This document shows, one piece after another, positions 18,519 to 36,330 of a stretch of 64,000 nt of DNA. The position numbers were made by a program, and so were the translations under genes. Where the stretch lies: positions 1-64,000 of the forward strand of contig JAGVBT010000039.1 in assembly GCA_020059605.1 (NCBI GenBank), written 5' to 3'. How positions within the stretch are numbered: position 1 is the first letter of the stretch; every line of letters starts with the position of its first letter. The notes beneath the pieces were generated by a model that had not been told where the DNA came from, made no database searches, and saw only the letters and a program-made list of their open reading frames with translations. Source of the stretch: Deltaproteobacteria bacterium (GTDB taxonomy: Bacteria; Desulfobacterota; BSN033; UBA1163).

Positions 18519-19127
18519 TTATCGGACTTTGGCGAGATGCCTTAAAATCTCTCCCATCAGGTGATTCCGGTTTTTGGCCCATTGTGTCATCAGTAACCGC
18601 ATCTTTTTCAAAAAAGTTTTTTCCGTAACCGGAACCAGGTTGATTCCGATGTTGAGCAGTCCTCCGGCCAGGGCGGCGTCCGCAAGAAAAGCAGCCACGC
18701 CCGCATCACTGACCGCGTTGGGGTTTCCCTTGATGATCAGAACCCTCGAATAATCCAGAAGAAGAAGGGCCTGCAGGCATACCAGCCGGGGAGTCCGGGT
18801 GGCCGCTCGATAGGCCTTTTGAATCTCTCTGGTTCGATGAATACTGTCCCTCTCCGTCTTTTTGGGAAGACGAAAGGCCCGGATCACACCATCAAAGGAT
18901 TTCGCGTCTTCATCAACGGCAAGCAGGAGCCTTTCCTGAAGGGCTAAAGCTCTCTTCCTGATCTTGCCCATTTCCTTTCCTTGCTTCCTATCCTTCTTTG
19001 CAGAGAGACCAGCCACCATGGCAATGAGAGCGGCGGACAGCGCCCCTGCCAAGGCAGAGGCGCTTCCGCCTCCGGGGGTCGGTCGGTCGGATGCCACTTT
19101 GTCTAAGAATCGTTTTATTTCCATCAT
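18519..19127 (-). CDS. fchA: Formimidotetrahydrofolate cyclodeaminase
   Basis: DRPTPGGGSASALAGALSAALIAMVAGLSAKK...GNPNAVSDAGVAAFLADAAL. Confidence 0.88.
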   Translation of the reverse strand: MMEIKRFLDKVASDRPTPGGGSASALAGALSAALIAMVAGLSAKKDRKQGKEMGKIRKRALALQERLLLAVDEDAKSFDGVIRAFRLPKKTERDSIHRTREIQKAYRAATRTPRLVCLQALLLLDYSRVLIIKGNPNAVSDAGVAAFLADAALAGGLLNIGINLVPVTEKTFLKKMRLLMTQWAKNRNHLMGEILRHLAKVR

Positions 19128-19344: not shown

Positions 19345-20241
19345 TTATTCGAAATCTAAAATCCGTTGCTCGATCACCTGGTTTATTGAAAATTCCGGGT
19401 ACTTTAAAAAATGCCGGACCAAACCTTCGAGAACCTTCAGGGGAATCATTCCAACGATCTCGGATCCTTCGATCTCAATGCCTTTCCCCGCAGCCTCTTT
19501 CCTGATGAACTCATAGACCTTGGGGATATTAGTTACCCGGTAATTGGTCAGGTTCATCGAGACCTGAACCATTCCCTTCTCCTTTAACGCCACCCCCATG
19601 GCCCTCACCCGGGGGAATCCCCCGTCTTTAAACCTCACCTTTTTTGCGATCTCCTTTGCCATTGCGAGATCTTCACTCTTCAGGTTGACATTGTATGCCA
19701 CCAGGGGGAACCGGGCTCCCACGACCGTTGCTCCGGACTTGGGATTAAAAAGGTCAGGACCCTCATCCGGTTTCCAGAAGGGGTCCTTCATCTTTTCAAC
19801 AAGCCCCTCATACTCCCCTCTTCGAATCGCCGGGAGTTCCTTTCTCTCCGCCCGGAGAGCCGCGTCTTCATAAAAAAAGACAGGGATTCCCCGCCCCCCC
19901 AACTCCTTTCCGAATCCCCGCGCCATGTCAACCGCCTCTTCCACCTCAACCCCGTGAACCGGAACGAATGGGACCACATCCACTGCCCCCAAACGGGGAT
20001 GCCCTCCCCTGTGCTGGCTCATGTCGATAAGGTCAATCGCCTGATGTGCCAGGGAAAGGGCTGCTTCTTTCACCGCCTCCGGATCGCCGACAAAGGTAAA
20101 GACACTCCGGTGATGGTCCCAATCCGATGAGATGTCGAGGAGCTGGACCCCTTTGTGCTTTCGAATTGCTTCGGCCATCAAAGCGATCTTATCCGCATCT
20201 CTTCCCTCGCTGATATTGGGAACACATTCAAGAAGTCTCAT
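19345..20241 (-). CDS. ftcD: Glutamate formimidoyltransferase
   Basis: MRLLECVPNISEGRD..; SQHRGGHPRLGAVDVVPFVP; start revised from 20310 because the first 23 residues are repeat-derived. Confidence 0.9.
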   Translation of the reverse strand: MRLLECVPNISEGRDADKIALMAEAIRKHKGVQLLDISSDWDHHRSVFTFVGDPEAVKEAALSLAHQAIDLIDMSQHRGGHPRLGAVDVVPFVPVHGVEVEEAVDMARGFGKELGGRGIPVFFYEDAALRAERKELPAIRRGEYEGLVEKMKDPFWKPDEGPDLFNPKSGATVVGARFPLVAYNVNLKSEDLAMAKEIAKKVRFKDGGFPRVRAMGVALKEKGMVQVSMNLTNYRVTNIPKVYEFIRKEAAGKGIEIEGSEIVGMIPLKVLEGLVRHFLKYPEFSINQVIEQRILDFE

Positions 20242-20249
20242 CGAATTCA

Positions 20250-20330
20250 ATCCATTAAATCCGAAATCCGAATATCGAAATCCGAAACAATTTCGAAATC
20301 CAAATCTCAAAATTTAAAACTGTCCTCTCC
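20250..20330. repeat. Quasi-repetitive intergenic sequence (ATCCGAAATCCGAATATCGAAATCCGAAAC... family)
   Basis: Reiterated ATCCGAA/TCGAAAT words upstream of ftcD. Confidence 0.6.
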
Positions 20331-20395: not shown

Positions 20396-21670
20396 TTAGG
20401 GCACTGAGTCGGTATAAAGCTTAGGTCCCTTGTGGACTATCTTCCCTTCCTTAATTACGGTCTTCACATGATCCACGCCGAAATGGTAGGGAAAATATTT
20501 ATAATTAGGAATATCGAGAACCAGGACATCCGCCTTCTTTCCCGTATCGAGGCTTCCGATCTCCTCTCCCCGTCCCATGGATTTAGCGGCGTGGATGGTC
20601 GTCGCCTGGACGACCTCCTGGGGGGTCATTCTATAGAAGAGGCAACCCATGGTCATCATCAGGGGAAGGGACTCGGTCATCGAGGAACCCGGATTCAAAT
20701 CGGTGGAAAGGGAAACCGACACCCCTCTCTCGATCATCTCTCGTGCCGGCGGATATATCCCCATTGATAAAAAGAAACTTGCCCCAGGGAGCAGGACCGC
20801 GGTGACCCCCTTCTCCGCCATCCGCTCCATCCCCTTCTGGCTCACATATTCGAGATGATCGGCGGAATAAGCCCCGAGCTCGGCCGCCAGTTCCGCTCCA
20901 CCGCCCGGGCTGAGCTGATCTGCGTGGATTTTTGGCTTGAGGCCGTGACGTTTTCCCGTCTCGAGAATCTCCCTCGACTCTTCGATGCTGAAGGCCTTCT
21001 CCTCGCAGAAAACATCGCAAAACTCCGCTAGCCCTTCCCGGGCCGCCTCCGGAATCATCTCCTGAACGAGAAGGTTGATATATTTGCTTCGCTCATCCTT
21101 AAACTCCTTTGGAATGGCATGGGCCCCCAGGAAGGTCGGGACGATGTCCACGGGATGATCTTTCTGCAATGCCTTCATCACCCGGAGAATCTTTAATTCA
21201 TCCTCAAGCGAAAGCCCGTAACCGCTTTTGGCCTCAATGGTCGTCACTCCCGTAGAGAGCAGGCGGTTGAGCCTCTTCTTGCCCAGAGAGAAAAGCTCGG
21301 CGAAAGAGGCCTTTCTCGTCGCCTCGACCGTTGAGAGAATTCCGCCCCCTCTCCCGGCGATTTCCAGATAGGAAAGGCCTTGAACCCTCTGTTCGAATTC
21401 ATTCTCTCTTGACCCGGCAAAGATGAGATGGGTATGCGAATCGATGAGTCCGGGCATCACCACCTTCCCTTTCGCATCGATCTCCCGCCCTTCCGGGCAC
21501 AAAACAAAATCTCCCGGCAATTGATCCGTTCTTCCGATCCAGAAGATTCTGCCCTCCCGAACGGCAATGGCGCCGTTGGGTATGATCCCCAATCCTGATG
21601 CATCCTTGAAGGAAGAAGAAAGGGTGAGAAGCTCTTTTGCATTTCTGATGAGAAGATCGATCTTAGTCAT
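20396..21670 (-). CDS. hutI: Imidazolonepropionase
   Basis: VMPGLIDSHTHLIFAGSRENEFEQR, TTIEAKSGYGL, ADHLEYVS, LSTDLNPGSS; start revised to MTKIDLL. Confidence 0.93.
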   Translation of the reverse strand: MTKIDLLIRNAKELLTLSSSFKDASGLGIIPNGAIAVREGRIFWIGRTDQLPGDFVLCPEGREIDAKGKVVMPGLIDSHTHLIFAGSRENEFEQRVQGLSYLEIAGRGGGILSTVEATRKASFAELFSLGKKRLNRLLSTGVTTIEAKSGYGLSLEDELKILRVMKALQKDHPVDIVPTFLGAHAIPKEFKDERSKYINLLVQEMIPEAAREGLAEFCDVFCEEKAFSIEESREILETGKRHGLKPKIHADQLSPGGGAELAAELGAYSADHLEYVSQKGMERMAEKGVTAVLLPGASFFLSMGIYPPAREMIERGVSVSLSTDLNPGSSMTESLPLMMTMGCLFYRMTPQEVVQATTIHAAKSMGRGEEIGSLDTGKKADVLVLDIPNYKYFPYHFGVDHVKTVIKEGKIVHKGPKLYTDSVP

Positions 21671-21694
21671 TTGAATAATTTTCAAATGGAAATT

Positions 21695-21777
21695 CCAATA
21701 ACCAAATTCCAAGCTCCATATAAATTCCAGTGACCGAATAATCAAATTGGTTTTTTAAATTGGAATTTGGATATTGG
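21695..21777. repeat. Inverted repeat CCAATAACCAAATTCCAA / TTGGAATTTGGATATTGG in the hisC-hutI spacer
   Basis: 17/18 complementary arms 21695-21712 and 21760-21777. Confidence 0.7.
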
Positions 21778-21827: not shown

Positions 21828-22919
21828 TTATAGTATCTTCTTCAACGCCTTAATGAATCTTCGATTATCTTCCATTCTCCCGATGGTGATTCTGCCACAG
21901 GTGAGATAGCCCCATGTCTTTCCGGGGCGGATGATGATTCCCTCTCTCAGGAGACCTTCAAAGACTTCTTCGATGTCTTTCCCGAAATCGATAAAAACGA
22001 AATTGGCCTCGCTCGGAACATAGCGAACTCCCATCCTGTCCAGTTCCTTATAAAGATACCTTCTTCCTTCGTAAACCAGTTGAATCGATTTAACGATATG
22101 TTCCGTGTCGCCCAGCGCAGCGACCGCGGCCGCCTGGGCCAGCCGGTGAACGGGGAAAGGGTCCCTCACCTGGTAGAGGCAACGGATGAGATCTTCCCTC
22201 CCGATCGCATAGCCGACTCTCAGGCCGGCCAGTCCATAAACCTTTGAAAAGGTCCGGAGTGCGATTACCTGCTTTCCGTTCTTCACATAATCCAAGCCGC
22301 TGGGATAGAAAGGCGCTTCCACAAAATCTCCGTAGGCTTCATCCAGGATGACGATGACCCGTCCGGGCAACCCGGCGAGAAACCGGTTGAGGGAGGGTTC
22401 GAAGACGATGGTTCCGGTAGGATTATTCGGGTTGCAGACGAAGATGAGTTTTGTCCTTCGGGTCACCCGGTTGAGCATGCCATCGAGATCATGGGTGAAA
22501 TCCCGCAATCTTACCCGCACGGGTTTTCCTCCCATGATTCGGGTGACATTGGTATAAACGGGAAAAGTGGGATCCGCCATGATCACTTCATCCCCTTCAT
22601 CCACAAAGGCGTTGGCAATCATGAGGATGAGATTATCGGCCCCGTTCGAAACGACGATGTTTTCCTCGGCCAGGGATAGGACCTTCGCCAGGGCCTTCCT
22701 TAACACCGGACTGGTCCCTTCCGGATAGAAGTGGATGTTCGAAAGTTCTTTCCGGATGGCTTCCAGGGCCTGGGGGGAAGGGCCAAGGAGGTTTTCATTC
22801 GATGCCAGCTTGACCCATCTCTTGGCCCCGTATTGTTTCTGAACCTCTTCGATCGATCTCCCGGGAATGTAAGAAGCGATTTTTAAAATCCCTTTTCTCG
22901 CCAATTTTTCAATCTTCAT
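21828..22919 (-). CDS. hisC: Histidinol-phosphate aminotransferase-like PLP enzyme
   Basis: KLASNENLLGPSP, NPNNPTGT, RTFSKVYGLAGLRVGY. Confidence 0.88.
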   Translation of the reverse strand: MKIEKLARKGILKIASYIPGRSIEEVQKQYGAKRWVKLASNENLLGPSPQALEAIRKELSNIHFYPEGTSPVLRKALAKVLSLAEENIVVSNGADNLILMIANAFVDEGDEVIMADPTFPVYTNVTRIMGGKPVRVRLRDFTHDLDGMLNRVTRRTKLIFVCNPNNPTGTIVFEPSLNRFLAGLPGRVIVILDEAYGDFVEAPFYPSGLDYVKNGKQVIALRTFSKVYGLAGLRVGYAIGREDLIRCLYQVRDPFPVHRLAQAAAVAALGDTEHIVKSIQLVYEGRRYLYKELDRMGVRYVPSEANFVFIDFGKDIEEVFEGLLREGIIIRPGKTWGYLTCGRITIGRMEDNRRFIKALKKIL

Positions 22920-24311
22920 TCAAATCACCTCAAGTCCAATCTCTCTCCATTCCTTTTTTCTCTTTTCGAATAAACTTTCATATTCATCCGTGGGACGAAT
23001 TTGATCCATCCGGTAGCATTCGTGAAACAATTTTCCGATGGGAGCCTCCGGAATATTTTTTTCGTAGCCTTCGATTAACTTCAAGGCAATCCGATTCGCT
23101 TCCTGTCGGCTAAGTCCCATCTTCGTCACCCAGTGCCCCACCTCAGCGTGGATCCGGGGTTCCATGCCGCTGCACCTCATTGGATGACGATTCTTTGCGA
23201 CCGCGGATGGATTGAGGTGCCACCCGGAGACGGTTGAGGTCAGAGAGTGAGCGCAGAGTTCATCGATGACCATCTCCGTGCATGGCCCCGACGCCATAAA
23301 GGCATTCGAGACAATCATGAGATGGGTATTCCTTGCCAAGGCCTGCCCGACCATGGAGATTAGCCAGAGCATCTCTCTCGTCGTGTTGCAAACGTAGTGG
23401 ATGTGAATTGGAAATGAATTGTGCCTCTCGGCAGAAAAACCAAGAAGGCCAAGAAAATGGTGTGCGACCAGGGCAATGGCTGTTCCCTCAGGACCGCCTG
23501 CATAACCTCCCATCAGGGGGCCATAAAGGGCTCCCAGGATGTAGGGAGATTGGCGAAGGAAAGCAACCTTTTTCAGGCGTTCGAAGTCCACTTTCATCTC
23601 CGCAATGGCTGCGACAAGCAACCCATCTCCCGGAAAGGCGCCGAACTTTTCCTGCGCCGAGGCAATGGTCGCATCCGTTTTTTCACCGGTGGATTGAAAG
23701 TTATGGATTCCGATATGGGGCCGTCCCGCCTGCCTTGCTGCTTCCCTCAACATCTGCGTATTCCAGATAGCGGCCTCCACTTCTACCGGAGATCCGGAGG
23801 TCACGGGAATCCCCTGATAACTGGTAATTAACGGGCCGGAAAAAGTGTCCGCAAGCGGCTCCTGTGCATAGCTTCGTGCGATCGGAAGAAACATTTCCTC
23901 GGGGACAGGGGTCCCCACGGCCGAGAAGAAACAGACAGGGTCTCTTGGGTCTTCCACCTTTCTTGGATAAACCGAAACGATCTCTTTTTCTCTGCCGTAG
24001 CGGACCTCCTGGGGAGCATGTTCCAATGCCCATGTGAGCTCCTCTTTTGAAAAGAGCATGACCCTCTGGGTATCCGTGCAATACACTCCCAAATCCAAAA
24101 AGAGATCAACCGCCGCCTGATACACTCGGTCTGCGAGGCCATCGTCTGATGGAATCACCGATTCAGGATGATAGCGGATCTCGTATTGTCTCATCAGGGC
24201 GGACACCTTTTTCCCCAATTTTTTATCGAAATCCGCCTCCTTCATCCCTTCTCCGGACTCCGCTCTTCTGATCACTTCCAAGAAATCGAAGAATGTCCCA
24301 TGATCTTTCAT
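22920..24311 (-). CDS. Pyrrolysine-less homologue of monomethylamine methyltransferase (MtmB family)
   Basis: LGVYCTDTQRV, GGYAGGPEGTAI, AGPCTEM-like SGPCTEMVIDELCAHSLTSTVSGW, GMEPRIHAEV, LIEGYEKNIPEAPIGKLFHECY, IRPTDEY match the MtmB framework over the full length; no in-frame UAG; residue 203 is His. Confidence 0.82.
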   Translation of the reverse strand: MKDHGTFFDFLEVIRRAESGEGMKEADFDKKLGKKVSALMRQYEIRYHPESVIPSDDGLADRVYQAAVDLFLDLGVYCTDTQRVMLFSKEELTWALEHAPQEVRYGREKEIVSVYPRKVEDPRDPVCFFSAVGTPVPEEMFLPIARSYAQEPLADTFSGPLITSYQGIPVTSGSPVEVEAAIWNTQMLREAARQAGRPHIGIHNFQSTGEKTDATIASAQEKFGAFPGDGLLVAAIAEMKVDFERLKKVAFLRQSPYILGALYGPLMGGYAGGPEGTAIALVAHHFLGLLGFSAERHNSFPIHIHYVCNTTREMLWLISMVGQALARNTHLMIVSNAFMASGPCTEMVIDELCAHSLTSTVSGWHLNPSAVAKNRHPMRCSGMEPRIHAEVGHWVTKMGLSRQEANRIALKLIEGYEKNIPEAPIGKLFHECYRMDQIRPTDEYESLFEKRKKEWREIGLEVI

Positions 24312-24973
24312 GCTTCTTCTCCCTTCTCCTCAACTTGAAGACCCGCGAGTCTTTTAGCCACCCTGACAGCCTCCATCGCTGAGGCTCCATAACCGTCTGC
24401 CCCGATCTTTTTCGCCCATTCGGGGAGCACGGGAGCCCCTCCCAACATAATGTTGACGTTTGCCCTTAATCCGCTTTCCCGAAGGGCCTCGATCAATTTC
24501 GGCATATGGACCATCGTGGTCGTCATCAAAGCAGAAACGCCTACGATGTCCGGATGGAGTTCTTTCACTTTTTCAATGAAATTGAGAACAGGCACGTCTC
24601 TTCCAAGGTCATAGACTTTAAACCCATTGCTCTCGAGCATGATCTTGACAATATTTTTGCCGATATCGTGGACATCGCCCTGGATGGTTCCCAACAACAC
24701 AGTTTTTTTAGGCAGGTCTTCTTCCTGGCCGAGGAGATGTTGACGAAAGACCTCGACCCCTGCTGTCATGGCATCCGCAGAGATAATGACCTGTGGTAAA
24801 TAAATCTCCAACGTGTCAAAAAGCCTCCCGATCTCTTTCATCCCCTCAGCAAACCCCTTCTCAATGGCCTCCGTGGGGGGGACTCCCTTGGTTAAGGCCT
24901 CTTTCGCCAGGGAGACCGTTCGCTCCTCGTCCCCCTCGATCACCGCTTCCGCCATCGCTTTGAACAGGTCCAT
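24308..24973 (-). CDS. Corrinoid (B12-binding) methyltransferase protein, MtmC/MtbC/MttC-like
   Basis: GTIQGDVHDIGKNIVKIMLESNGF B12-binding motif; ATGA overlap with the downstream methyltransferase. Confidence 0.92.
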   Translation of the reverse strand: MDLFKAMAEAVIEGDEERTVSLAKEALTKGVPPTEAIEKGFAEGMKEIGRLFDTLEIYLPQVIISADAMTAGVEVFRQHLLGQEEDLPKKTVLLGTIQGDVHDIGKNIVKIMLESNGFKVYDLGRDVPVLNFIEKVKELHPDIVGVSALMTTTMVHMPKLIEALRESGLRANVNIMLGGAPVLPEWAKKIGADGYGASAMEAVRVAKRLAGLQVEEKGEEA

Positions 24974-25354
24974 GAAATCTTCCTTCCTCCGTCGCCGTCG
25001 CTCAACCTTGAGTTTTCCTTGCCAATTTAAATGGAAAATGGAAAAAATTCAAGGCAGTTCCCGACCCTTCTCCTGAAATGAAAGAGAATTTTGAAAAAGT
25101 TTAACAATCTCAGAAATTCTGCTTCATCCCTTTTTTTAATCTGTGTCACCGGGAGAACGTCTGGTTTTTTTCAAGAATTCTCTTAAAAAGGATTGACAAA
25201 ACGGAGAGAACATAATAAACGATAATGTGGTCAACCCCGTTAGGAAGCCTTCTGCTCTTGAACGGGGTAAACGGAGGATGAAGGGAGGGATGCCACTTCT
25301 TCTGATGAAACGGTGGGTTAACAGAAATCAATTTTCGAAAAGGAGGAGGTACAT

Positions 25355-26404
25355 ATGCCAAAGGGGAAGTTAATGACTAAAATCAGTATCTTTGTATTGG
25401 GGGTGTTCACGTTCATCGGATTATTGGGATCTCCATCATGGGCTTCCACCATCACCATCAAATTCGCCCATGGCATGCCCCCGGATGAGGAGGAAGCGCT
25501 TCATCGAGGCGTCGTTGTTTTCAAGAAGATGGTCGAGCAGAGGACGGCTGGAAGAGTCAAAGTGGACATCTATCCTGCCAATCAGCTGGGAAAAGAAAGG
25601 GAGCAGTTTGAAGGCGTCAAATTGGGGACGATAGAAATGTGCATGATCGCTGAGGGCCCCATGGCCGGATTCTTCCCTGAAATCATGGTGGTTGGAATTC
25701 CTTATCTTTATGCAAACGAAATTACCGCTTGGAGATCCCTGGACGGCTCTTTTGGAAAAGCCCTCTTCGAGGAGATGAGGAAAAAAACAGGGGTAAGGGC
25801 CCTGGGTATCGGAGAAAACGGGTTCAGAAATTTCACCAATCGTGCCAGACCCATCAAATCCCCGGATGATATGAGAGGTTTGAAGATCAGGACCATGGAG
25901 AATCCTGCTCACATGGCCATGGTGAGGGCGTTAGGAGCGAGCCCCACCCCCATCGCCTGGGGAGAAGTCTACATGGCACTTCAGCAGGGAGTGGTAGATG
26001 GGCAGGAGAATCCCGTCTCAGTCATTGAGGTTGCAAAATTTAATGAGGTCCAGAAATATCTGACCCTGGATGGCCATGTTTATAGCATCCTCCCCATCCT
26101 CATCAACGATAAATTCTTTATGTCCCTCCCTCCGGACATTCAGAAAATCATTTTGGATGTCGCAAAGACGGCCACAACGGTGCAGAGAGGGCAAAATGTC
26201 AAGAAGGTCTATGATGGGGTGAAGAGCCTTCAAGATAAGGGGATGGAGGTTTACTCCCCTAACGAAAAAGAGCTCCAGATGTTCAGAGATAGATCTCAAA
26301 AACCAGTGCTCGAATTTCTGGATAAAACATTTACAGAAAAGAAGATTGATAAGAAATGGATCGAAATGGCCCGCCAATCGGCGACGGCTTCGGAAAAGGA
26401 TTAA
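25355..26404 (+). CDS. dctP: TRAP transporter substrate-binding protein
   Basis: KFAHGMPPDEEEALHRGVVVFKKMVEQRTAGRVKVDIYPANQLG; RBS GGAGGAGG. Confidence 0.92.
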   Translation: MPKGKLMTKISIFVLGVFTFIGLLGSPSWASTITIKFAHGMPPDEEEALHRGVVVFKKMVEQRTAGRVKVDIYPANQLGKEREQFEGVKLGTIEMCMIAEGPMAGFFPEIMVVGIPYLYANEITAWRSLDGSFGKALFEEMRKKTGVRALGIGENGFRNFTNRARPIKSPDDMRGLKIRTMENPAHMAMVRALGASPTPIAWGEVYMALQQGVVDGQENPVSVIEVAKFNEVQKYLTLDGHVYSILPILINDKFFMSLPPDIQKIILDVAKTATTVQRGQNVKKVYDGVKSLQDKGMEVYSPNEKELQMFRDRSQKPVLEFLDKTFTEKKIDKKWIEMARQSATASEKD

Positions 26405-26411
26405 GTATTTG

Positions 26412-26457
26412 AAAATCCCCCATGTCCCCTTTGGAAAGGGGATATGGGGGATTTTTT
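26412..26457 (+). terminator. Strong hairpin plus T-run between dctP and dctQ (terminator or attenuator)
   Basis: AAAATCCCCCATGTCCCC/GGGGATATGGGGGATTTT 18-bp stem (one G-T wobble), 8-nt loop, then TT. Confidence 0.75.
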
Positions 26458-26472
26458 AGGAGAGACAGTGAC

Positions 26473-26955
26473 GTGAAGGGCCTTAAGCAATTCTCTGCAA
26501 AAGTGAGCCGCATGGCTGAGAAGCTTGTCCAGGCTGCCCTCGTTGCAATGGTCGCCGTGATGACGGTCACTATCATCCTGCAGGTCTTTATGCGATATCT
26601 TTTTCTCTACTCTTTGTCCTGGTCGGAAGAGGTAGCACGATACCTGATGATCTGGGTTGCTTTTTTAGGGGCCAGTCTTGCTTTAAAATATGGGTTTCAT
26701 ATCGGCGTCGAATTTGTGATCACAAGGATTCCGGAGAAGACAAGGGCTCGGGTCAATCTGGTGGCTAAACTCTCCATCCTTGTTTTTTTAATCTTTTTCA
26801 CCGTCGGAGGCTTCCAGGTTGCTTGGGCCGTACGGGACCAGGATTCCCCCGCCCTTCTCTTCTCGATGGGTTATGCCTACCTGTCCGCCCCGGTCGGAGG
26901 GGTCTTCATGGTGATCCAATTGTTAAACTCTTTGGTGGAAGACTGGGTAAAATAA
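26473..26955 (+). CDS. dctQ: TRAP transporter small permease
   Basis: 4-TM protein, SWSEEVARYLMIWVAFLGASLALKYGFHIGVE; start revised to GTG 26473 after AGGAGAG. Confidence 0.9.
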   Translation: MKGLKQFSAKVSRMAEKLVQAALVAMVAVMTVTIILQVFMRYLFLYSLSWSEEVARYLMIWVAFLGASLALKYGFHIGVEFVITRIPEKTRARVNLVAKLSILVFLIFFTVGGFQVAWAVRDQDSPALLFSMGYAYLSAPVGGVFMVIQLLNSLVEDWVK

Positions 26956-26965
26956 GGTAAAGGCT

Positions 26966-28255
26966 ATGGTCCTTCTCGTCTTAGGGTCTGTTTTCACGGT
27001 CAGTTTGCTTATTGGAATCCCGATTGCCTTCTGCCTGGGTCTATGTTCTCTTGCCGTGGTTTTATACACGGGGGACTATTCGATTGTTCTCATCGCCCAA
27101 AAAATATTCAATGGAATGGATATGTTTTCTTTGATGGCCATCCCTCTGTTTATCTTATCGGGTGACCTGATGAATTTAGGAGGGGTGACAGATCGGCTTA
27201 TCAAATTTTCAAATCTCTTGGTCGGGCATATCCGGGGAGGTCTTGCCCATACTCTGGTCGTGGCGGAAATGTTTCTGTCAGGGATTACGGGATCAGCCGT
27301 CGCAGACGCCTCGGCTCTGGGAACGGTCCTGATTCCTTCCATGGTCAAGGAAGGATATGATGTCGAATTTTCCACTGCCATCTTGGCAACGGCCGCTACC
27401 GCAGGGCCCATCATCCCGCCAAGCATCACCATGGTGGTTTATGGGGTGACCATGGGAGTGTCCATCGGCGGGCTTTTCCTTGCAGGAATGATTCCGGGCA
27501 TCATTATGGGACTCGCCATGATGGCCATGGCCTATTACTTTGCACGGAAGAGAAACTATCCGCGAAATGAAAGAAGGGCAAGTCTTCGTCAGATTATCAA
27601 AGGAAGCCGGGAGGCCATCGCCGCTCTCGTCCTTCCCGTCATTATCCTGGGTGGCATCATGTCCGGTGTTTTTACGGCCACCGAGGCGGCCGCGATTGCC
27701 GTCTTCTTCGCCTTCATCTTCGGTTTCTTCGTCTTTAAAACGCTGAAGGTCAAAGACGTTCCAAAAATCCTGATCAACTGCGCTATCACCAGCTCCGTCA
27801 TCATGTTTATCATCGGGACGGCCAATATTGCCCTCTGGTTCCTGGCGACCCAGCAGGTCCCCGCAAAGGTGGCCTCCTTTTTCCTTTCAATTTCAAACAA
27901 CCCTTATGTCCTGATGTTGATTGTCAATATTCTCCTCCTCATCACCGGATGTTTTCTGGAAACGGGAGCCGCCATCATCCTCTTTGCCCCGATCTTGGCT
28001 CCGATCCTGATCAATGCGGGATTCCACCCCCTTCATGTAGGGTTTATCTTTGTTTTCAACCTGGTGATCGGAATGATCACTCCTCCTTTGGGCATCTGCC
28101 TTTTCGTAGGTTGCACGATTGCCCGGATCTCCATCGAACGCCTCTCAAGAGCGATCTGGCCCTTTGTCCTGATCTTGATCGCTGTCCTCTTGATCTTCAG
28201 CTATTTCCCGAGTATTGCGATGATTGTTCCCCGGATATTCAAAATAGGGGTGTAG
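26966..28255 (+). CDS. dctM: TRAP transporter large permease
   Basis: SGDLMNLGGVTDRLIKFSNLLVGHIRGGLAH, IIPPSITMVVYG. Confidence 0.94.
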   Translation: MVLLVLGSVFTVSLLIGIPIAFCLGLCSLAVVLYTGDYSIVLIAQKIFNGMDMFSLMAIPLFILSGDLMNLGGVTDRLIKFSNLLVGHIRGGLAHTLVVAEMFLSGITGSAVADASALGTVLIPSMVKEGYDVEFSTAILATAATAGPIIPPSITMVVYGVTMGVSIGGLFLAGMIPGIIMGLAMMAMAYYFARKRNYPRNERRASLRQIIKGSREAIAALVLPVIILGGIMSGVFTATEAAAIAVFFAFIFGFFVFKTLKVKDVPKILINCAITSSVIMFIIGTANIALWFLATQQVPAKVASFFLSISNNPYVLMLIVNILLLITGCFLETGAAIILFAPILAPILINAGFHPLHVGFIFVFNLVIGMITPPLGICLFVGCTIARISIERLSRAIWPFVLILIAVLLIFSYFPSIAMIVPRIFKIGV

Positions 28256-28261
28256 AGGGCA

Positions 28262-29797
28262 CTATCCAAGTTTTCCTGAGGCCTTTTCAACGCGATGGAG
28301 GAGTTCTCCGGATTCGATCAAAAGCTGAATTTTTTTGATATCCTCACTGAACCGTCGATCTCCTTTAATCGGAGGAACTTTCTCCCGGACAAGACGATAG
28401 GCTTCTTTAATTCCAATTCCAGGCCGAAGGGGCAGTAAAAATTCAAGACCCTGCGTGGCACATAGCAATTCCATCGCCAGGATATGCTCAACATTTCTAA
28501 CAATATCTCTCCCTTTTCTGGCGGCAATCGTTCCCATCGAGACATGGTCCTCCTTATCCGCGGAGGTAGGAATGGAATCAACGCTGGCCGGGTGGGCGAG
28601 GACCTTATTTTCAGAGGCCAGGGCGGCCGCACTGACCTGAACCATCATCAGTCCGGAATGGAGCCCTCCCTCGTTCGTGAGAAAAGCGGGCAGTCCGGAC
28701 AGCGCCGGATTGATCAGCTTCTCAATCCTCCTCTCCGAGATCCCTCCCAGCTCGGAGATGACGATCCCCAGGAGGTCCATGGCAAAGGCAACCGGTTCTC
28801 CATGGAAATTCCCGCAATTGAGGATCTTCCCTTTTTCGGCGAAGATGAGAGGATTGTCCGTGGCCGAATTGACTTCAATCTCGAGCGTCTTGCGGACGAA
28901 TGCAAGACCATCCCTGACCGCCCCGTGAACCTGTGGAATGCATCTCAGGGAATAGGCATCCTGGATTTTGGGGCAAAATTTATGGGATGCGGCGATCTCA
29001 TCCTTTCGACCCAGTTTCTGAAAATTCTTCGAAACGGCAAATGGCCCCGGGAAAGGCCTGACTTTATCGATATCAAAATCAAACGCCTTGAAACTTCCTT
29101 TCAGAGCATCTAACGTGCAGGTCCCCACGATATCCGCCACTTTGCAGAGTCGTTCCGCCCTGAGGAGAGCGAGAAGACCCACCGCCGTCATAACCTGTGT
29201 GCCATTAATCAATGCAAGACCTTCTTTTGCTTTCAGCGTAAGCGTCGGGATACCCGCCTTCTCCATGGCCTTTTTCCCTGACATTCGTTTTCCATGATAG
29301 ATGGCTTCTCCCTCGCCTATCAGAACCGATGCGAGATGGGCAAGGGGCGCCAGATCGCCGCTTGCGCCTACGGAGCCCTGTTCCGGAATCAGGGGGTGGA
29401 CTCCCCGATCGAGCATTTGAACAAGCGTTTCCAGGACCTCCATTCGGGTTCCGGAATAGCCCATGGCAAGCACATTGGCCCTGAGAAGCATAATCGCCCT
29501 GGTGGTCGCCTCATCGAAATAGGGGCCTACTCCAACCGAATGGCTCCTGATGAGATTCCTCTGGAGGGCTTCAATCTGGGAGTGATCGATCACCTGGTCC
29601 GAGAGCAGACCGAATCCTGTGGTCACCCCGTAGATCTTCTCCCCCTGTTCAAGAGCCTCCTCAACAAAATCCCTTGAGCGCTTCATCCTTTTGTTGACGG
29701 AAGGGGGAATCTTCACCGTGGCTCTTCCCTCTGCCACTTCCGCCACATTTTCCAGGGAGAGATGCTTCCCGTCCAGGACAACCGTTCTCATACTCAC
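28262..29797 (-). CDS. hutH: Histidine ammonia-lyase
   Basis: MIO tripeptide ASG in [30 protein letters not shown]. Confidence 0.93.
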
Positions 29798-29922: not shown

Positions 29923-31650
29923 TTATGAATCTTCCCTCTGATAGATCGTCACGCCCGGGATTTTGATCCCTTTCCCTTTGGCCGTCTCAATCGCTCTCTC
30001 ATATCCCGCATCCGTATGGCGCATGACGCCCGTCCCGGGATCGGTCGTCAATACCCTCAGCAATCTTCTCTCCGCATCCCCTGTCCCGTCGGCCACCACG
30101 ACCATCCCCGCATGGATGGAATAGCCGATCCCCACTCCTCCTCCGTGATGCACGGATACCCAGGTCGCTCCGGCAGCCACATTGAGAAGGGCATTTAAAA
30201 TCGGCCAGTCGGCAATGGCGTCGCTTCCATCTTTCATTCCTTCTGTTTCGCGGTAAGGTGAAGCCACTGAACCGCTGTCGAGATGGTCCCTTCCGATCAC
30301 AATGGGCGCCCTTAATTCCCCTCTTGCAACCATATCATTAAAAACCTTTCCGATCCTTGCCCTTTGGCCGTACCCCAGCCAGCAAATCCTTGCCGGAAGC
30401 CCCTGAAATGTTACCTTCTCCCTGGCCAGCCGGATCCACCGGGCGAGGGAAAAGTCGTCCGGAAATTCCTTTAAAATGGCTTCATCTGTTCTGTAAATAT
30501 CTTCGGGTTCCCCGGACAGGGCCGCCCACCGGAAAGGCCCCTTCCCTTCACAGAAGAGAGGACGGATAAAGGCGGGGACGAATCCTGGATAGCTAAAGGC
30601 ATCTTTTACCCCGGCCTGAAAGGCCTGAGCCCGGATGTTATTGCCGTAGTCAAAAACGATCGAACCCTTCTTCTGCAACTCGATCATGGCCCGTACATGA
30701 ACGGCCATCGACGCCATGGCCTGGCGAATATATTCCCCGGGATCTTTCCTGCGAAGTTGAATCGCTTCATCAAGGCCCACCCCGGCGGGAACATATCCGT
30801 TCAGGGCATCATGGGCCGAGGTCTGGTCGGTTACCAAGTCCGGGACAATCCCCCTCTTTACGATCTCAGGAAGAACCTCCGCCGCATTTCCCAACAGGCC
30901 GATCGATTGGGGAATCCCCTTCTCTTTTGCGCCGAGGGCCAGGATCAGCGCATCCTCCAACCGGTCCGCCATCACGTCGAGGTATCCTGTTTCGAGACGC
31001 CGTTTGATTCTGCCGGGGTCCACTTCTACGCCCAGAAAGACTCCTTCATTCATCGTGGCGGCCAGGGGCTGGGCGCCTCCCATTCCTCCAAGGCCTGCGG
31101 AAAGGGTGAGCCTCCCCCTGAGAGAGCCTCCGAAATGCTTTCTGGCGGCAGAGGCAAAGGTCTCATAAGTCCCCTGGAGAATCCCCTGGGTTCCGATATA
31201 GATCCAGCTTCCTGCCGTCATCTGGCCATACATGGTGAGTCCCAGTTCTTCGAGCTCCCGGAATTTTTCCCAGTTGGCCCAGTTGGGAACGAGCATCGAA
31301 TTGGAGATCAGGACTCTTGGCGCATCCGAATGGGTCTTGAAGATGCCGACGGGCTTCCCCGATTGGACGAGCAATGTCTCGTCATTTTCTAAATTCGTCA
31401 GGCATTTCACCAATTGATGGTATGCCTCCCAGTTCCGGGCGGCCTTCCCGGATCCCCCATAGACAATCAGTTCTGCGGGTTTCTCGGCAACCTCCGGATC
31501 GAGGTTATTCATCAGCATCCTTAAGGCCGCCTCCGTCTGCCAGTTCTTGCAGGTAAGCTTTGATCCGCGCGGCGCTTTGATTCCCACCTGGACCCCGGCC
31601 AGGGTTTCGACTTTTTCTTCAACCTTTACCTTTACCTTTTTCTTTTCCAT
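29923..31650 (-). CDS. hutU: Urocanate hydratase
   Basis: [49 protein letters not shown]; start revised to ATG 31650 with GAGGAGAATC RBS. Confidence 0.95.
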
Positions 31651-31708
31651 GATTCTCCTCGATCGCAAACGGCAGTCCTCGGCACGCGATGGACCGTCTT
31701 CTCTTTCT

Positions 31709-32416
31709 CTAAGCTCCGCCCAGGTAGGCTTTTTTGACCAGGGGATCATGCGCGAGATTCCGGCTGGTATCGTTTAAGACGATTTCGCCGGTTTCGAGGA
31801 CATATCCTCGGTCTGCCGCCTGCAAGGCCTTTCGGGCGTTCTGCTCGACGAGCAGGATGGTCACTCCCTGCCGGTGCAGATTCTGGATGACTTTGAAGGT
31901 CTCTTCCACATAAATGGGCATCAAACCCAGGGATATCTCATCCATCAGGATCAGTCGGGGCCTGGACATCAATGCCCTGCCGATGGCCAGCATCTGCTGC
32001 TCCCCGCCGCTGAGGGTCTTTCCCACCTGATCCTGTCTCTCCCTCAACCTGGGAAAGAGTTTGAAGGCCTCTTCCATGCCTGCATCGATCGTCTTTCGAT
32101 CCTGCTGTGTGTAGGCTCCCATGAGGAGGTTTTCGGTCACGGTGAGGTCGGGAAAAATTTTTCGGCCTTCGGGCACGAGACTGATCCCCAAAAGGGCGCG
32201 TTGATGCGCAGGGGTGGCGCTGATATCCCTTCCCTTGAAAAGGATTTCTCCCCTGCGGCATTTGACCAGACCCATCACCGTCCTCAGAATTGTGCTCTTT
32301 CCCGCTCCGTTTGCACCGATGATCGTCACCAATTCTCCCTCATGGACTGTGAACCCGATCCCTTTCAGAGCCAGGAATTCCCCGTAAGAGACTTCGAGCC
32401 CGCGCACCTCCAGCAT
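31709..32416 (-). CDS. livF: Branched-chain amino-acid-type ABC transporter ATPase
   Basis: [41 protein letters not shown]. Confidence 0.92.
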
Positions 32417-33184
32417 TTAGTCCTCCTCGTCTTCGAGTCGTACCGACTTCCCCAGATAGGCCTCGATCACCTGAGGATTAGAACGAATCGTTTCAGGAGA
32501 ACCCTCCGCAATCTTACTGCCATGGTCGAGCACAACGATCCTGTTGCAGAGGTCCATGACGACCTGCATGTTGTGTTCAATGAGAAGCACGGAAATCCCC
32601 TGGTCTCTGACCGTTCGGATGAGACCCATGAGCCGGGCCGATTCTTCAAAGCGAAGTCCCCCCGAGGGTTCATCCAGAAGAAGAAGGCGTGGCTCAAGGG
32701 CAAGGGCCCGTGCGATTTCGACTCGCTTTTTAATGCCCAGAGGAAGATTCTTGGCCAATTGTTTTTGATAGGGTTGGAGACCTGTTTTCTCCAACAGAAT
32801 TTGAACTTCCTTTAAAGTATCGGCACGCCGGAAGGGTCCAGTCGAATTCCATAGATCGGGATAGAAACGGTGGCCGTAGGCCACTAAAATATTCGTTTCT
32901 ACATTCAGATTCGGGAAGGGGCGGACGATCTGGAACGTTCTTCCAATCCCCAAACGGCTGACCTGGTGAGGTTTCATTCTAAGAATCGATTTACCTTGAA
33001 AGGCTACCTCGCCGTCCGAAGCCGGGTAGATGCCGGAGATAATATTGAACAGGGTCGTCTTCCCGGCTCCGTTGGGACCGATGATCCCCAGGATCTCCCC
33101 CTTTTCAGCCGTAAAACTGACCTGATCCAGGGCCCGCAAGCCGTCAAACTCTTTGCTCAAGCCGTCGATGTTTAGAAGGGCCAT
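32417..33184 (-). CDS. livG: Branched-chain amino-acid-type ABC transporter ATPase
   Basis: GPNGAGKTTLFNIISGIYPASDG, LLLDEPSGGL. Confidence 0.92.
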   Translation of the reverse strand: MALLNIDGLSKEFDGLRALDQVSFTAEKGEILGIIGPNGAGKTTLFNIISGIYPASDGEVAFQGKSILRMKPHQVSRLGIGRTFQIVRPFPNLNVETNILVAYGHRFYPDLWNSTGPFRRADTLKEVQILLEKTGLQPYQKQLAKNLPLGIKKRVEIARALALEPRLLLLDEPSGGLRFEESARLMGLIRTVRDQGISVLLIEHNMQVVMDLCNRIVVLDHGSKIAEGSPETIRSNPQVIEAYLGKSVRLEDEED

Positions 33185-33188
33185 CGAT

Positions 33189-34082
33189 TCACCGGTTCTC
33201 CGATGGACGAAATTGAATCCGTCTCAACATTCTTGGGAGGGTCGACTCTTCTCCCAGCAGGCCGCCGGGTTGAAACCGCATCATGGCCAAGAGAAGAAGC
33301 CCATAAACGAACGTACGGTATTCCATGATGGGACGGGAAATCTCCGGAAGAATCCCTAAAATAACCGCTCCCAGTATGGGGCCCCAGCGAGTGCCGATCC
33401 CACCAAAGACAACCATGCAGAGGATCAGAATCGACTGGCCGAACCCGAAATTCTGGGGCATGATGAAGGTCAGGAAGTGGGCATAGAATCCTCCTGCGAG
33501 GCCGGCGATTGTGCTTCCGAGGACAAAGGCCATCACTTTGAACCGAACCACATCCACGCCCATCGCCTCTGCTGCTTGTTCATCCTCCCGTATGGAGGAC
33601 CAGGCTAACCCGATCCACGACCGGCCCAGTCGCCGATCGAATAGGATCAGGAGGACAAAAACGATGAGGATAAGGAGAAAATACTCCGGTTTGCTCATCT
33701 CCCGCCCGAACCATTTGGGCAGGTTGATGCCCCCGATGCCCATGGCTCCGCCAAAGAAAGGAAGGTAAAGAAAAACCGCTTCCACGACGAAACCAATTCC
33801 CATGGTCGTGATGGCAAGAAAGTCGTCGCGGACGCGCAGGCAGGGAATTCCCAAAACCGCTCCGACGACACCGGCAACGACAGCTGCCAGGGGCACGGAG
33901 GCCCAGAAAGGGAAACCGCCCCCCGTATAGAGCAGGGCCGAGGTATAGGCCCCGATGCCGAAGAAGGCGGCATGCCCGAGAGAGATCTGTCCGGCATGAC
34001 CCGTGATCACATTGAGGCTATGGGCCAGGATGGCATAGACGATGATCGTGATGAGTATGGTGATGAGATATCCGCTGATCAT
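33189..34082 (-). CDS. livM: Branched-chain amino-acid-type ABC transporter permease
   Basis: VITGHAGQISLGHAAFFGIGAYTSALL. Confidence 0.92.
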   Translation of the reverse strand: MISGYLITILITIIVYAILAHSLNVITGHAGQISLGHAAFFGIGAYTSALLYTGGGFPFWASVPLAAVVAGVVGAVLGIPCLRVRDDFLAITTMGIGFVVEAVFLYLPFFGGAMGIGGINLPKWFGREMSKPEYFLLILIVFVLLILFDRRLGRSWIGLAWSSIREDEQAAEAMGVDVVRFKVMAFVLGSTIAGLAGGFYAHFLTFIMPQNFGFGQSILILCMVVFGGIGTRWGPILGAVILGILPEISRPIMEYRTFVYGLLLLAMMRFQPGGLLGEESTLPRMLRRIQFRPSENR

Positions 34083-34175
34083 TCTATATACCGTAAGGCG
34101 GAAAAGGTGAAACGTTAGGGGAAGGGAATAAAAACTCGTTGTCCCCTTACGCCTGACGACTCACGCCTAACCTGT

Positions 34176-35033
34176 TCAGGCTTTTCCTAATAATCCATAA
34201 GGTCTGAACATTAACACCAGGATCATTGCGATAAATGCAACCGCATCCCGGGGAAAGGGAATGGCAAGAACACCGATGAAGAATGTTTCTGACAGACCCA
34301 CAACGATTGACGCAACCACGGTTCCGGGAATATTCCCCAATCCCCCTAAAACGACAATCGCCAGGGCCTTGTAGGCCGGGATGCTGCCCATGGTCGGCCA
34401 GACCTGGTTATCATAGACTCCGATCAGTACCCCTGCCGCCCCCGCCATCGCCGAACCCAGGATAAAGTTGATCGCAATGATCCTGCCCACATTGACCCCG
34501 AATGAAGAAGTGGTTTCAGCATCCATGGCGCAGGCCCGCATCGCCAGACCGATGCGGGTCCGGGTAAGAAAGGTCCAGAGAACGATCAGGATGACAACCG
34601 TGACCAGGAGGATGAGAATCTGTGTCTCGGTGAGTTTGAAACTCCCGATGGATAGGTCTCCCAGCCCGATACGCGCGTTATAGGTCAGGGTGTGGGGCCC
34701 GGCAACGATCCGGAAGGCTTCTTCCAGGGCGATAAAAAGACCGATGGAGGCAATCAGGGGCGCAATTCTCGGTAGGTGGAGAAGCGGCGAATAGAGAAAA
34801 CGTTCTACGAGGTAACCCGCAACGGCTGCTCCTGCCATCCCGAATAACAAGGAGACCCAGAAGTCGCCGACGAGGCGAAAGGAGAACCAGCCGACATAAG
34901 CCCCCAGGGCATAGATCCCCGCATGGGCGACATGGAGAATGCGGAGAATCCCGTAGACCATGGTCAGCCCCAGGGAGATGAGAGCATAGACACTACCGAT
35001 GGCAATTCCGTTGGCCAGCTGTTGCCAGAGCAT
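34176..35033 (-). CDS. livH: Branched-chain amino-acid-type ABC transporter permease
   Basis: ANGIAIGSVYALISLGLTMVYGILRILHVAHAGIYALGAY. Confidence 0.92.
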   Translation of the reverse strand: MLWQQLANGIAIGSVYALISLGLTMVYGILRILHVAHAGIYALGAYVGWFSFRLVGDFWVSLLFGMAGAAVAGYLVERFLYSPLLHLPRIAPLIASIGLFIALEEAFRIVAGPHTLTYNARIGLGDLSIGSFKLTETQILILLVTVVILIVLWTFLTRTRIGLAMRACAMDAETTSSFGVNVGRIIAINFILGSAMAGAAGVLIGVYDNQVWPTMGSIPAYKALAIVVLGGLGNIPGTVVASIVVGLSETFFIGVLAIPFPRDAVAFIAMILVLMFRPYGLLGKA

Positions 35034-35157
35034 ATTAAATCCAGTAAGCAGTGAACAGTCATCAAACCACAACTTAATCCCCTCCCTTTCTAAGATAAAG
35101 AAAAGGAGGGGATGATATACATGAACTGATAACTGGTCACTGATTACTATTCACTTA

Positions 35158-36330
35158 CTATTTAGTCGGCGGGGTGATGACCTCCGGGTTGTCGATGACC
35201 GCAAGCCGCCGGAACTTTCCGCCTTTGACCACCTGAATCTGAACGGGTTTGACGACTTCTCCCTGGACGAAGCGGCTAATCTTGCCGGTCAGGCCATTGT
35301 AGTCCTTCGTCTCAAGCAGGGCCTTCTGGATAGCCTTAGGATCTGTTCCGGCCTTTTTAATAGCATCGACGAGGATCATAAAGGCATCGTAACTGGAGGC
35401 TCCGACCATATCCGCATCTTCGTTATAGGCTTTACGGTAATTGGCTAAAAAATTCTGAACCACGGGCCTGGGGTCATCCCTGTCCAGATTCGTTGCGATA
35501 ATCACGCCCTCCGCAGCCGGTCCAGCGATTTCGAGAAATTTCGGGGAATCAAAACCCTCCTCTCCCAAGATCTGGGCCGTGATCCCAAGCTCTTTGGCCT
35601 GGCGCACGATGGAGGCGGCCTCGTTATAATACCCCGCGGCGAAGATCACCTCGGGATTGCCTTCCTTGATCCGGGTGAGAAAGGGACGGAAGTCCTTTTC
35701 CCCGGGGAATTTATACATCTGTTTCGTCAGGATTGCGGAGCCCAGTTTCTCCGCCCTTTCTGCAAAACCCGCCGAAATGGCTCTCCCGAAGTCGTTATCC
35801 ATGGAGATCACAGAGATTCTTTTCGCTTTCAGATTCTTGACGGCAAATTCGGCGGCTGCGGCTCCCTCAACCTCGCCAAGATACCCGTTACGGAAGATAA
35901 AATCGTTCGGTTTTTTCTGAGTCGGGTCCCATGTGACGTCGGGGTGGACTGCATATCCCGCTACCATGGGCATGCCGGCCTTTTGAAAAATCGGGGCGGT
36001 CACACGGGTGGGACCGCTATACGATCCACTGACCACGCCTACCACCTTATCCCTCTCAATCAGCTTATTGGCGATGGCAACCGCCTCCTGGGGATTCAGT
36101 CGGTCGTCATAAATGATCAGTTCTACTTTCTTGCCTCTGATTCCTCCTCCATCATTCACCTCCTTCAAACCCAGTTCGACGGCGTGTTTGGCGCTCATCC
36201 CATCGGCCGCAGCCGGTCCGGTGATGGGGGCAAAGAACCCGATCTTGATCGCATCCTGAGCCTGACCCGTTCCCGGTATAAAAAACAGAAAAAGTCCGCA
36301 AACCATGCCCATCAATCCTAACCTTCTCAT
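35158..36330 (-). CDS. livK: Branched-chain amino-acid-type ABC transporter substrate-binding protein
   Basis: IKIGFFAPITGPAAADGMSAKHAVELGLKEVNDGGGIRGKKVELIIYDD. Confidence 0.92.
   Translation of the reverse strand: MRRLGLMGMVCGLFLFFIPGTGQAQDAIKIGFFAPITGPAAADGMSAKHAVELGLKEVNDGGGIRGKKVELIIYDDRLNPQEAVAIANKLIERDKVVGVVSGSYSGPTRVTAPIFQKAGMPMVAGYAVHPDVTWDPTQKKPNDFIFRNGYLGEVEGAAAAEFAVKNLKAKRISVISMDNDFGRAISAGFAERAEKLGSAILTKQMYKFPGEKDFRPFLTRIKEGNPEVIFAAGYYNEAASIVRQAKELGITAQILGEEGFDSPKFLEIAGPAAEGVIIATNLDRDDPRPVVQNFLANYRKAYNEDADMVGASSYDAFMILVDAIKKAGTDPKAIQKALLETKDYNGLTGKISRFVQGEVVKPVQIQVVKGGKFRRLAVIDNPEVITPPTK

Follow-up and report, generated by a model that had tools for sequence, protein, structure and literature searches.

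A pyrrolysine-free MtmB homologue in a bacterial histidine-degradation operon: a probable demethylase of N-methylated histidine

What would a homologue of the monomethylamine methyltransferase MtmB do among genes for histidine breakdown, and on what substrate, when the pyrrolysine (Pyl) of MtmB is replaced by histidine? The window analysed here, a 64,000-nucleotide stretch of DNA from a Deltaproteobacteria bacterium (contig JAGVBT010000039.1), raises this question. A sequence-only reading of the window had described the gene as a 463-aa open reading frame free of in-frame UAG and related to MtmB, not to MttB. Reading of the frame from ATG to TGA bore this out, with no in-frame stop or UAG over the whole ORF. 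In a Pfam scan the sole match was PF05369 (MtmB; E = 6.6e-97, 325.6 bits against a cut-off of 25), covering residues 9–460 of the protein and positions 2–450 of the 450-position profile, and the MttB profile (PF06253) gave no match. The best PDB match found with phmmer was Methanosarcina barkeri MtmB1 (1tv2/1l2q, E = 5e-69). With the AlphaFold model (pLDDT 93) as query, the top Foldseek matches were the three MtmB entries, 1nth included (TM 0.94, 1.5 Å, 32% identity), while MttB structures ranked far lower, with TM ~0.5. Membership of the MttB family is therefore ruled out by both the Pfam scan and the structural comparison.

The same reading had placed His203 at the position of Pyl202, and two alignments agree with it. 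Codon 203 is CAT (23705–23703). The phmmer alignment is free of gaps from the AGRP motif through the Pyl position and sets H203 on O202, and a MAFFT alignment of 32 sequences gives the same equivalence. In the predicted structure, which has the MtmB fold, H203 lies within a strand formed by residues 201–204. In the MtmB structures, Glu229, Glu259 and Gln333 contact Pyl and its amine adduct; in the hut-linked clade, Glu229 aligns to Leu (to Phe in a single species), Glu259 to Leu and Gln333 to Asn. Neither the UAG-encoded Pyl at position 202 nor the Glu229/Glu259/Gln333 set of a functional MtmB is thus present, and the replacements support the earlier suggestion that the substrate is probably not monomethylamine.

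Chance was judged by conservation, selection and joint transfer. Four species retain the histidine, and the dN/dS of the mtmB-like gene (0.05–0.08) indicates strong purifying selection; chance occurrence is dismissed on these grounds, and a pseudogene or a relic of a lost Pyl codon is likewise ruled out. Other homologues in the alignment have Tyr, Leu, Met, Ile, Val, Thr, Gly or a gap at the Pyl position. The His-bearing homologues form one clade in the tree (support 100/97), so His marks that clade and is not a general replacement for Pyl. Residues specific to the clade are H203, F205, L231, R296, N298 and H388, of which R296 might, at a guess, bind a carboxylate. The closest other copy with His at 202 (G018:C115, 67% identity) adjoins an ABC transporter of another type, and its 6.5-kb contig shows neither a hut gene nor a gene for a corrinoid protein next to it.

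The surroundings of the gene in the window are listed in Table 1. mtmC, encoding the cognate corrinoid protein, lies upstream of mtmB and overlaps it by 4 nucleotides (ATGA). The hut cluster is complete, with hutU, hutH, hisC, hutI, ftcD and fchA; a corrinoid methyltransferase is built into an operon of this whole histidine-degradation cluster. All genes of the Hut pathway with FtcD and FchA, as used in anaerobic histidine degradation, are therefore present, and the corrinoid methyltransferase sets the locus apart from usual hut clusters, those of close relatives included. A route through ergothioneine was considered and rejected, because HutU fits an ordinary urocanase.

Table 1. Features of the hut–mtmCB locus in the window and of the Pyl cassette on contig C43 of the same assembly.
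Feature	Coordinates	Strand	Remarks
fchA-like formimidoyl/methenyl-THF cyclodeaminase/cyclohydrolase	18519..19127	-	PF04961; NF045657 below cut-off
ftcD, glutamate formimidoyltransferase	19345..20310	-	TIGR02024, 400.6 bits
hutI, imidazolonepropionase	20396..21745	-	TIGR01224, 494 bits
HisC-like aminotransferase	21828..22919	-	starts at base directly after mtmB stop
Exchanged unit mtmB-mtmC-dctPQM	22850..28600		approximate edges: 5' end of hisC, 3' end of hutH
mtmB-like corrinoid methyltransferase	22920..24311	-	463 aa; ATG start, TGA stop; His203 at Pyl202 position
Cognate corrinoid protein, mtmC/mtbC-like	24308..24973	-	221 aa; TIGR02370, 228.7 bits vs cut-off 215.3; DVHDIGK motif
dctP, TRAP solute-binding protein	25355..26404	+	divergent from mtmC; in mobile unit
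dctQ, TRAP small permease	26422..26955	+	in mobile unit
dctM, TRAP large permease	26966..28255	+	in mobile unit
hutH, histidine ammonia-lyase	28262..29797	-	TIGR01225, 678.5 bits
hutU, urocanase	29923..31749	-	TIGR01228, 966.7 bits; thiourocanate models below cut-off
livKHMGF-type ABC transporter of hut cluster	31709..36330	-	annotated by reading and synteny, not HMM
Split pylS	C43 243-1142 and 4972-5337		
Corrinoid protein	C43 1163-1813		
tRNA-Pyl(CUA)	C43 4897-4969		
mtbB	C43 5363-6757		one in-frame TAG

Comparison with relatives showed which parts of the locus are constant; all genomes compared, the window's own included, are MAGs. The same hut–mtmCB arrangement occurs in three species of another genus of the same family (G013, G015 and G016), with mtmB 83–89% identical and His kept; the hut linkage of the His clade is seen within this one family of MAGs only. 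In seven relatives (G002, G003, G005, G006, G009, G010 and G014), contigs spanning the hut region contain no mtmCB, and the gene order is liv-hutU-hutH, a transporter, then hisC-hutI-ftcD-fchA. Six of the seven keep the hisC–hutI block, a stretch that the ORF caller did not resolve in G009. The presence of hisC in hut clusters without mtmCB rules out HisC as part of a methyl module. The transporter slot of these relatives holds a related TRAP system (G003), an unrelated TRAP system or an ABC system. In G003 the slot is filled by a TRAP system 79–82% identical to that of the window although mtmCB is lacking, so histidine or urocanate may itself be what the transporter carries. In the three other carriers of mtmCB (L066, L067 and L068), two dctP genes share one dctQM and are ~89–95% and ~72% identical to the dctP of the window.

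Several comparisons indicate that the transporter and mtmCB have a history of their own. Between the window and G013, protein identity is 95% for dctP, 97% for dctM, 87% for mtmC and 89% for mtmB, as against 69% for hisC, 76% for hutI and 86% for hutH; between the window and its genus mate G003 it is 87% for hisC, 79% for dctP and 82% for dctM. Synonymous divergence (dS) from G013 is 0.36–0.87 in dctP, dctM, mtmB and mtmC, and 1.5 in hutH and 2.7 in hisC, values above 1 being near saturation and rough. Trees of the flanking genes join the window with G003 (support 0.99–1.0), while the TRAP tree joins it with G013. Nucleotide identity rises near 22.85 kb and drops near 28.6 kb. The simplest reading of these sequence comparisons is that a unit of ~5.7 kb, dctPQM-mtmCB, moved as one between the hut loci of two genera, presumably by homologous exchange. 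Since dctPQM moves together with mtmCB, the transporter and the enzyme pair probably serve one substrate, and the location in a hut cluster together with this transfer between species suggests that the enzyme probably demethylates a methylated histidine.

A second MtmB linked to hut genes was found in G015, on a single 5.6-kb contig, where mtmC and mtmB share one strand with, ahead of them, genes for a HutC-like regulator and for another urocanase (91% identical to the first). This MtmB is ~31% identical to that of the window and falls in another clade of the tree. That an MtmB this distant should also neighbour a urocanase within one bacterial family speaks against pure coincidence, with one contig as the instance.

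The assembly from which the window derives also encodes Pyl machinery. Contig C43 (L127, 1-6954) holds a compact Pyl cassette (Table 1) in which pylB, pylC and pylD were named by reading and gene order. The explanation that the genome simply lost Pyl is ruled out by this cassette for the window's assembly, C43 being a 7-kb contig for which a binning error is possible. No PylS scored above cut-off in the nine genus mates searched, nor in G013, G015 and G016. The His enzyme is thus found whether or not Pyl machinery is present, and so cannot rely on that machinery. No MttB was found in the window's own genome.

Other non-Pyl MtmBs are present in the group. The own genome has a second one (C25:25320-26684, minus strand; L069:10299-11681), with Met at 202 and a corrinoid protein, surrounded by an ABC transporter, two class-III aminotransferases, a phosphonatase-like HAD hydrolase (TIGR03351, below cut-off) and a LysR-type regulator. 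From this neighbourhood, a methylated aminophosphonate could be its substrate; similar HAD and LysR genes flank an MtmB in G018 (L063). In L070, L071 and L072 (from G022, G017 and G021, respectively), an MtmB with Ile at 202 and a corrinoid protein belong to a conserved cluster with a GntR-type regulator, a HisC-like aminotransferase, a transaldolase-like protein, a HAD hydrolase and an alanine-dehydrogenase-like gene, and a cluster resembling it in the own genome (L111) is without mtmB. G018 has PylS despite a large expansion of non-Pyl MtmBs, with 14 MtmB matches (for example on L056, L058, L059 and L064), some of them fragments and none reported with an in-frame stop. G019:C233 (L074:4401-5734), of the same class, has a UAG-containing MtmB; MtmBs of the Pyl and the non-Pyl kind thus occur side by side in this bacterial group.

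We consider it probable that mtmCB encodes a Pyl-independent corrinoid N-demethylase that feeds N-methylated histidine into the Hut pathway; what we infer concerns its substrate, its direction, the methyl acceptor and the part played by His203. The TRAP system would import the substrate, for which an imidazole-N-methylhistidine (N-tau or N-pi) is the simplest candidate and hercynine (histidine betaine) the main alternative. In the MtmB homologue, His203 and adjacent residues would line the pocket at the Pyl site of MtmB, and the enzyme would offer the N-methyl group to the corrinoid protein's Co(I); a RACo-type activase would keep the cobalt reduced, and a methyltransferase encoded elsewhere in the genome would hand the methyl group to tetrahydrofolate. 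The freed histidine would pass through HutH, HutU, HutI, FtcD and FchA, and the methyl group, once on tetrahydrofolate, would enter the folate pool to which FtcD and FchA also contribute. The hut cluster itself contains neither a corrinoid:THF methyltransferase nor a reductive activase, and candidates lie elsewhere in the genome: RACo is present in all four carriers, and pterin-binding methyltransferases are encoded in the own genome, one of them a single-domain protein (NF005719, above cut-off) whose gene adjoins that of a further corrinoid protein.

Against this reading stand the His202 copy of G018 away from hut genes, the TRAP system of G003 in a locus lacking mtmCB, a hut linkage seen in one family of MAGs only, and the short contig of the second G015 locus; nor is a substrate fixed by gene position alone. 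Pyl-free enzymes of this type need the methyl group on a nitrogen that leaves easily, and a protonated N-methylimidazole departs as neutral imidazole. An imidazole-N-methylhistidine is therefore chemically reasonable and would give histidine in one step. We put forward tentatively that an MtmB-fold enzyme with His for Pyl removes the methyl group of N-methylhistidine from its imidazole ring, and so acts on a nitrogen of an aromatic ring where MtmB acts on an alkylamine. Hercynine, being quaternary, is also reasonable, yet further demethylation would be needed.

A variant of this reading, which we regard as possible though doubtful, has hercynine (N-alpha-trimethylhistidine) or another N-alpha-methylated histidine as the substrate. 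Those Pyl-free corrinoid methyltransferases whose substrates are established use quaternary amines. The enzyme would take a methyl group from the quaternary amine, as MtqB does from tetramethylammonium (PMC13044021). In the organism of the window, dimethylamine might next be set free by HutH and used by the UAG-containing MtbB, and the C43 cassette does pair MtbB with a corrinoid protein in a genome in which no MttB was found. Against the variant, a single MtmB-type enzyme is not expected to take hercynine to histidine alone, the own genome showed no MttB, and with no PylS above cut-off in the other three carriers, a Pyl-dependent dimethylamine step would not be general.

It seems unlikely that the enzyme demethylates a general amine (choline, tetramethylammonium or methylamine) and owes its place in the hut cluster to the transporter slot as a recombination hot spot. 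The slot between hutH and hisC evidently exchanges genes, holding differing transporters among relatives, and choline and tetramethylammonium are substrates of MtqB, another member of the family (PMC13044021). However, mtmCB runs head to tail with hisC-hutI-ftcD-fchA and is retained there in four species, the second, distant MtmB also adjoins a urocanase gene, and Glu229, Glu259 and Gln333 of MtmB are replaced. Demethylation after deamination, from N-methylurocanate or a related imidazole acid, is improbable: organic acids are frequent TRAP cargo and the second mtmCB of G015 directly follows a urocanase gene, but mtmCB in the window is not adjacent to hutU, and the scores of the two HutU copies are those of ordinary urocanases.

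Non-Pyl MtmBs as such are not new. In a published tree of 1,061 MtmB sequences the majority are non-Pyl, mostly without known function, and MtqB, a non-Pyl MtmB of Methanococcoides methylutens Q3c described in March 2026, demethylates tetramethylammonium and choline (PMC13044021). The view in the sequence-only reading that no characterised non-Pyl MtmB was known is accordingly out of date. That reading was right about the MtmB identity, the His and a substrate that is probably not monomethylamine; it had overlooked the hut operon, the mtmC overlap, the mobile TRAP–mtmCB unit, the Pyl cassette and the variety of residues at the Pyl position across the family. Of the hut setting of this His-type branch we found no earlier description in the literature searched; nor did the open-licence literature yield anything relevant on anaerobic demethylation of methylhistidine or hercynine. 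Like M. barkeri MtmB (1NTH/1L2Q/1TV2), the window's protein matches PF05369 over its full length, shares the fold and has a corrinoid partner; unlike it, it is bacterial, shares 32% of its residues, has His for Pyl and Leu, Leu and Asn at the three pocket positions, sits in a hut setting and is presumably folate-based. With MtqB it shares membership of the Pyl-less MtmB family and a corrinoid protein of its own, whereas MtqB, by its description, is from a methanogen, uses CoM as acceptor and has quaternary amine substrates. The non-Pyl MtgB, MtpB and MtcB of the MttB superfamily would be analogous in Pyl-free corrinoid N-demethylation, but belong to another Pfam family and resemble the model only weakly in fold.

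The MtmB family is mostly Pyl-less and without known substrate, with one such member, MtqB, assayed, and for a second branch the locus suggests a specific substrate that can be tested. The question of why Pyl is retained is touched as well, in that an assembly with a Pyl cassette and a UAG-containing mtbB nevertheless has Pyl-less MtmB homologues. The cluster is likely an anaerobic route for methylated histidine; should the methyl group sit on the imidazole ring, as tentatively proposed above, anaerobes would gain access to N-methylhistidine, a modified residue abundant in the muscle proteins of animals.
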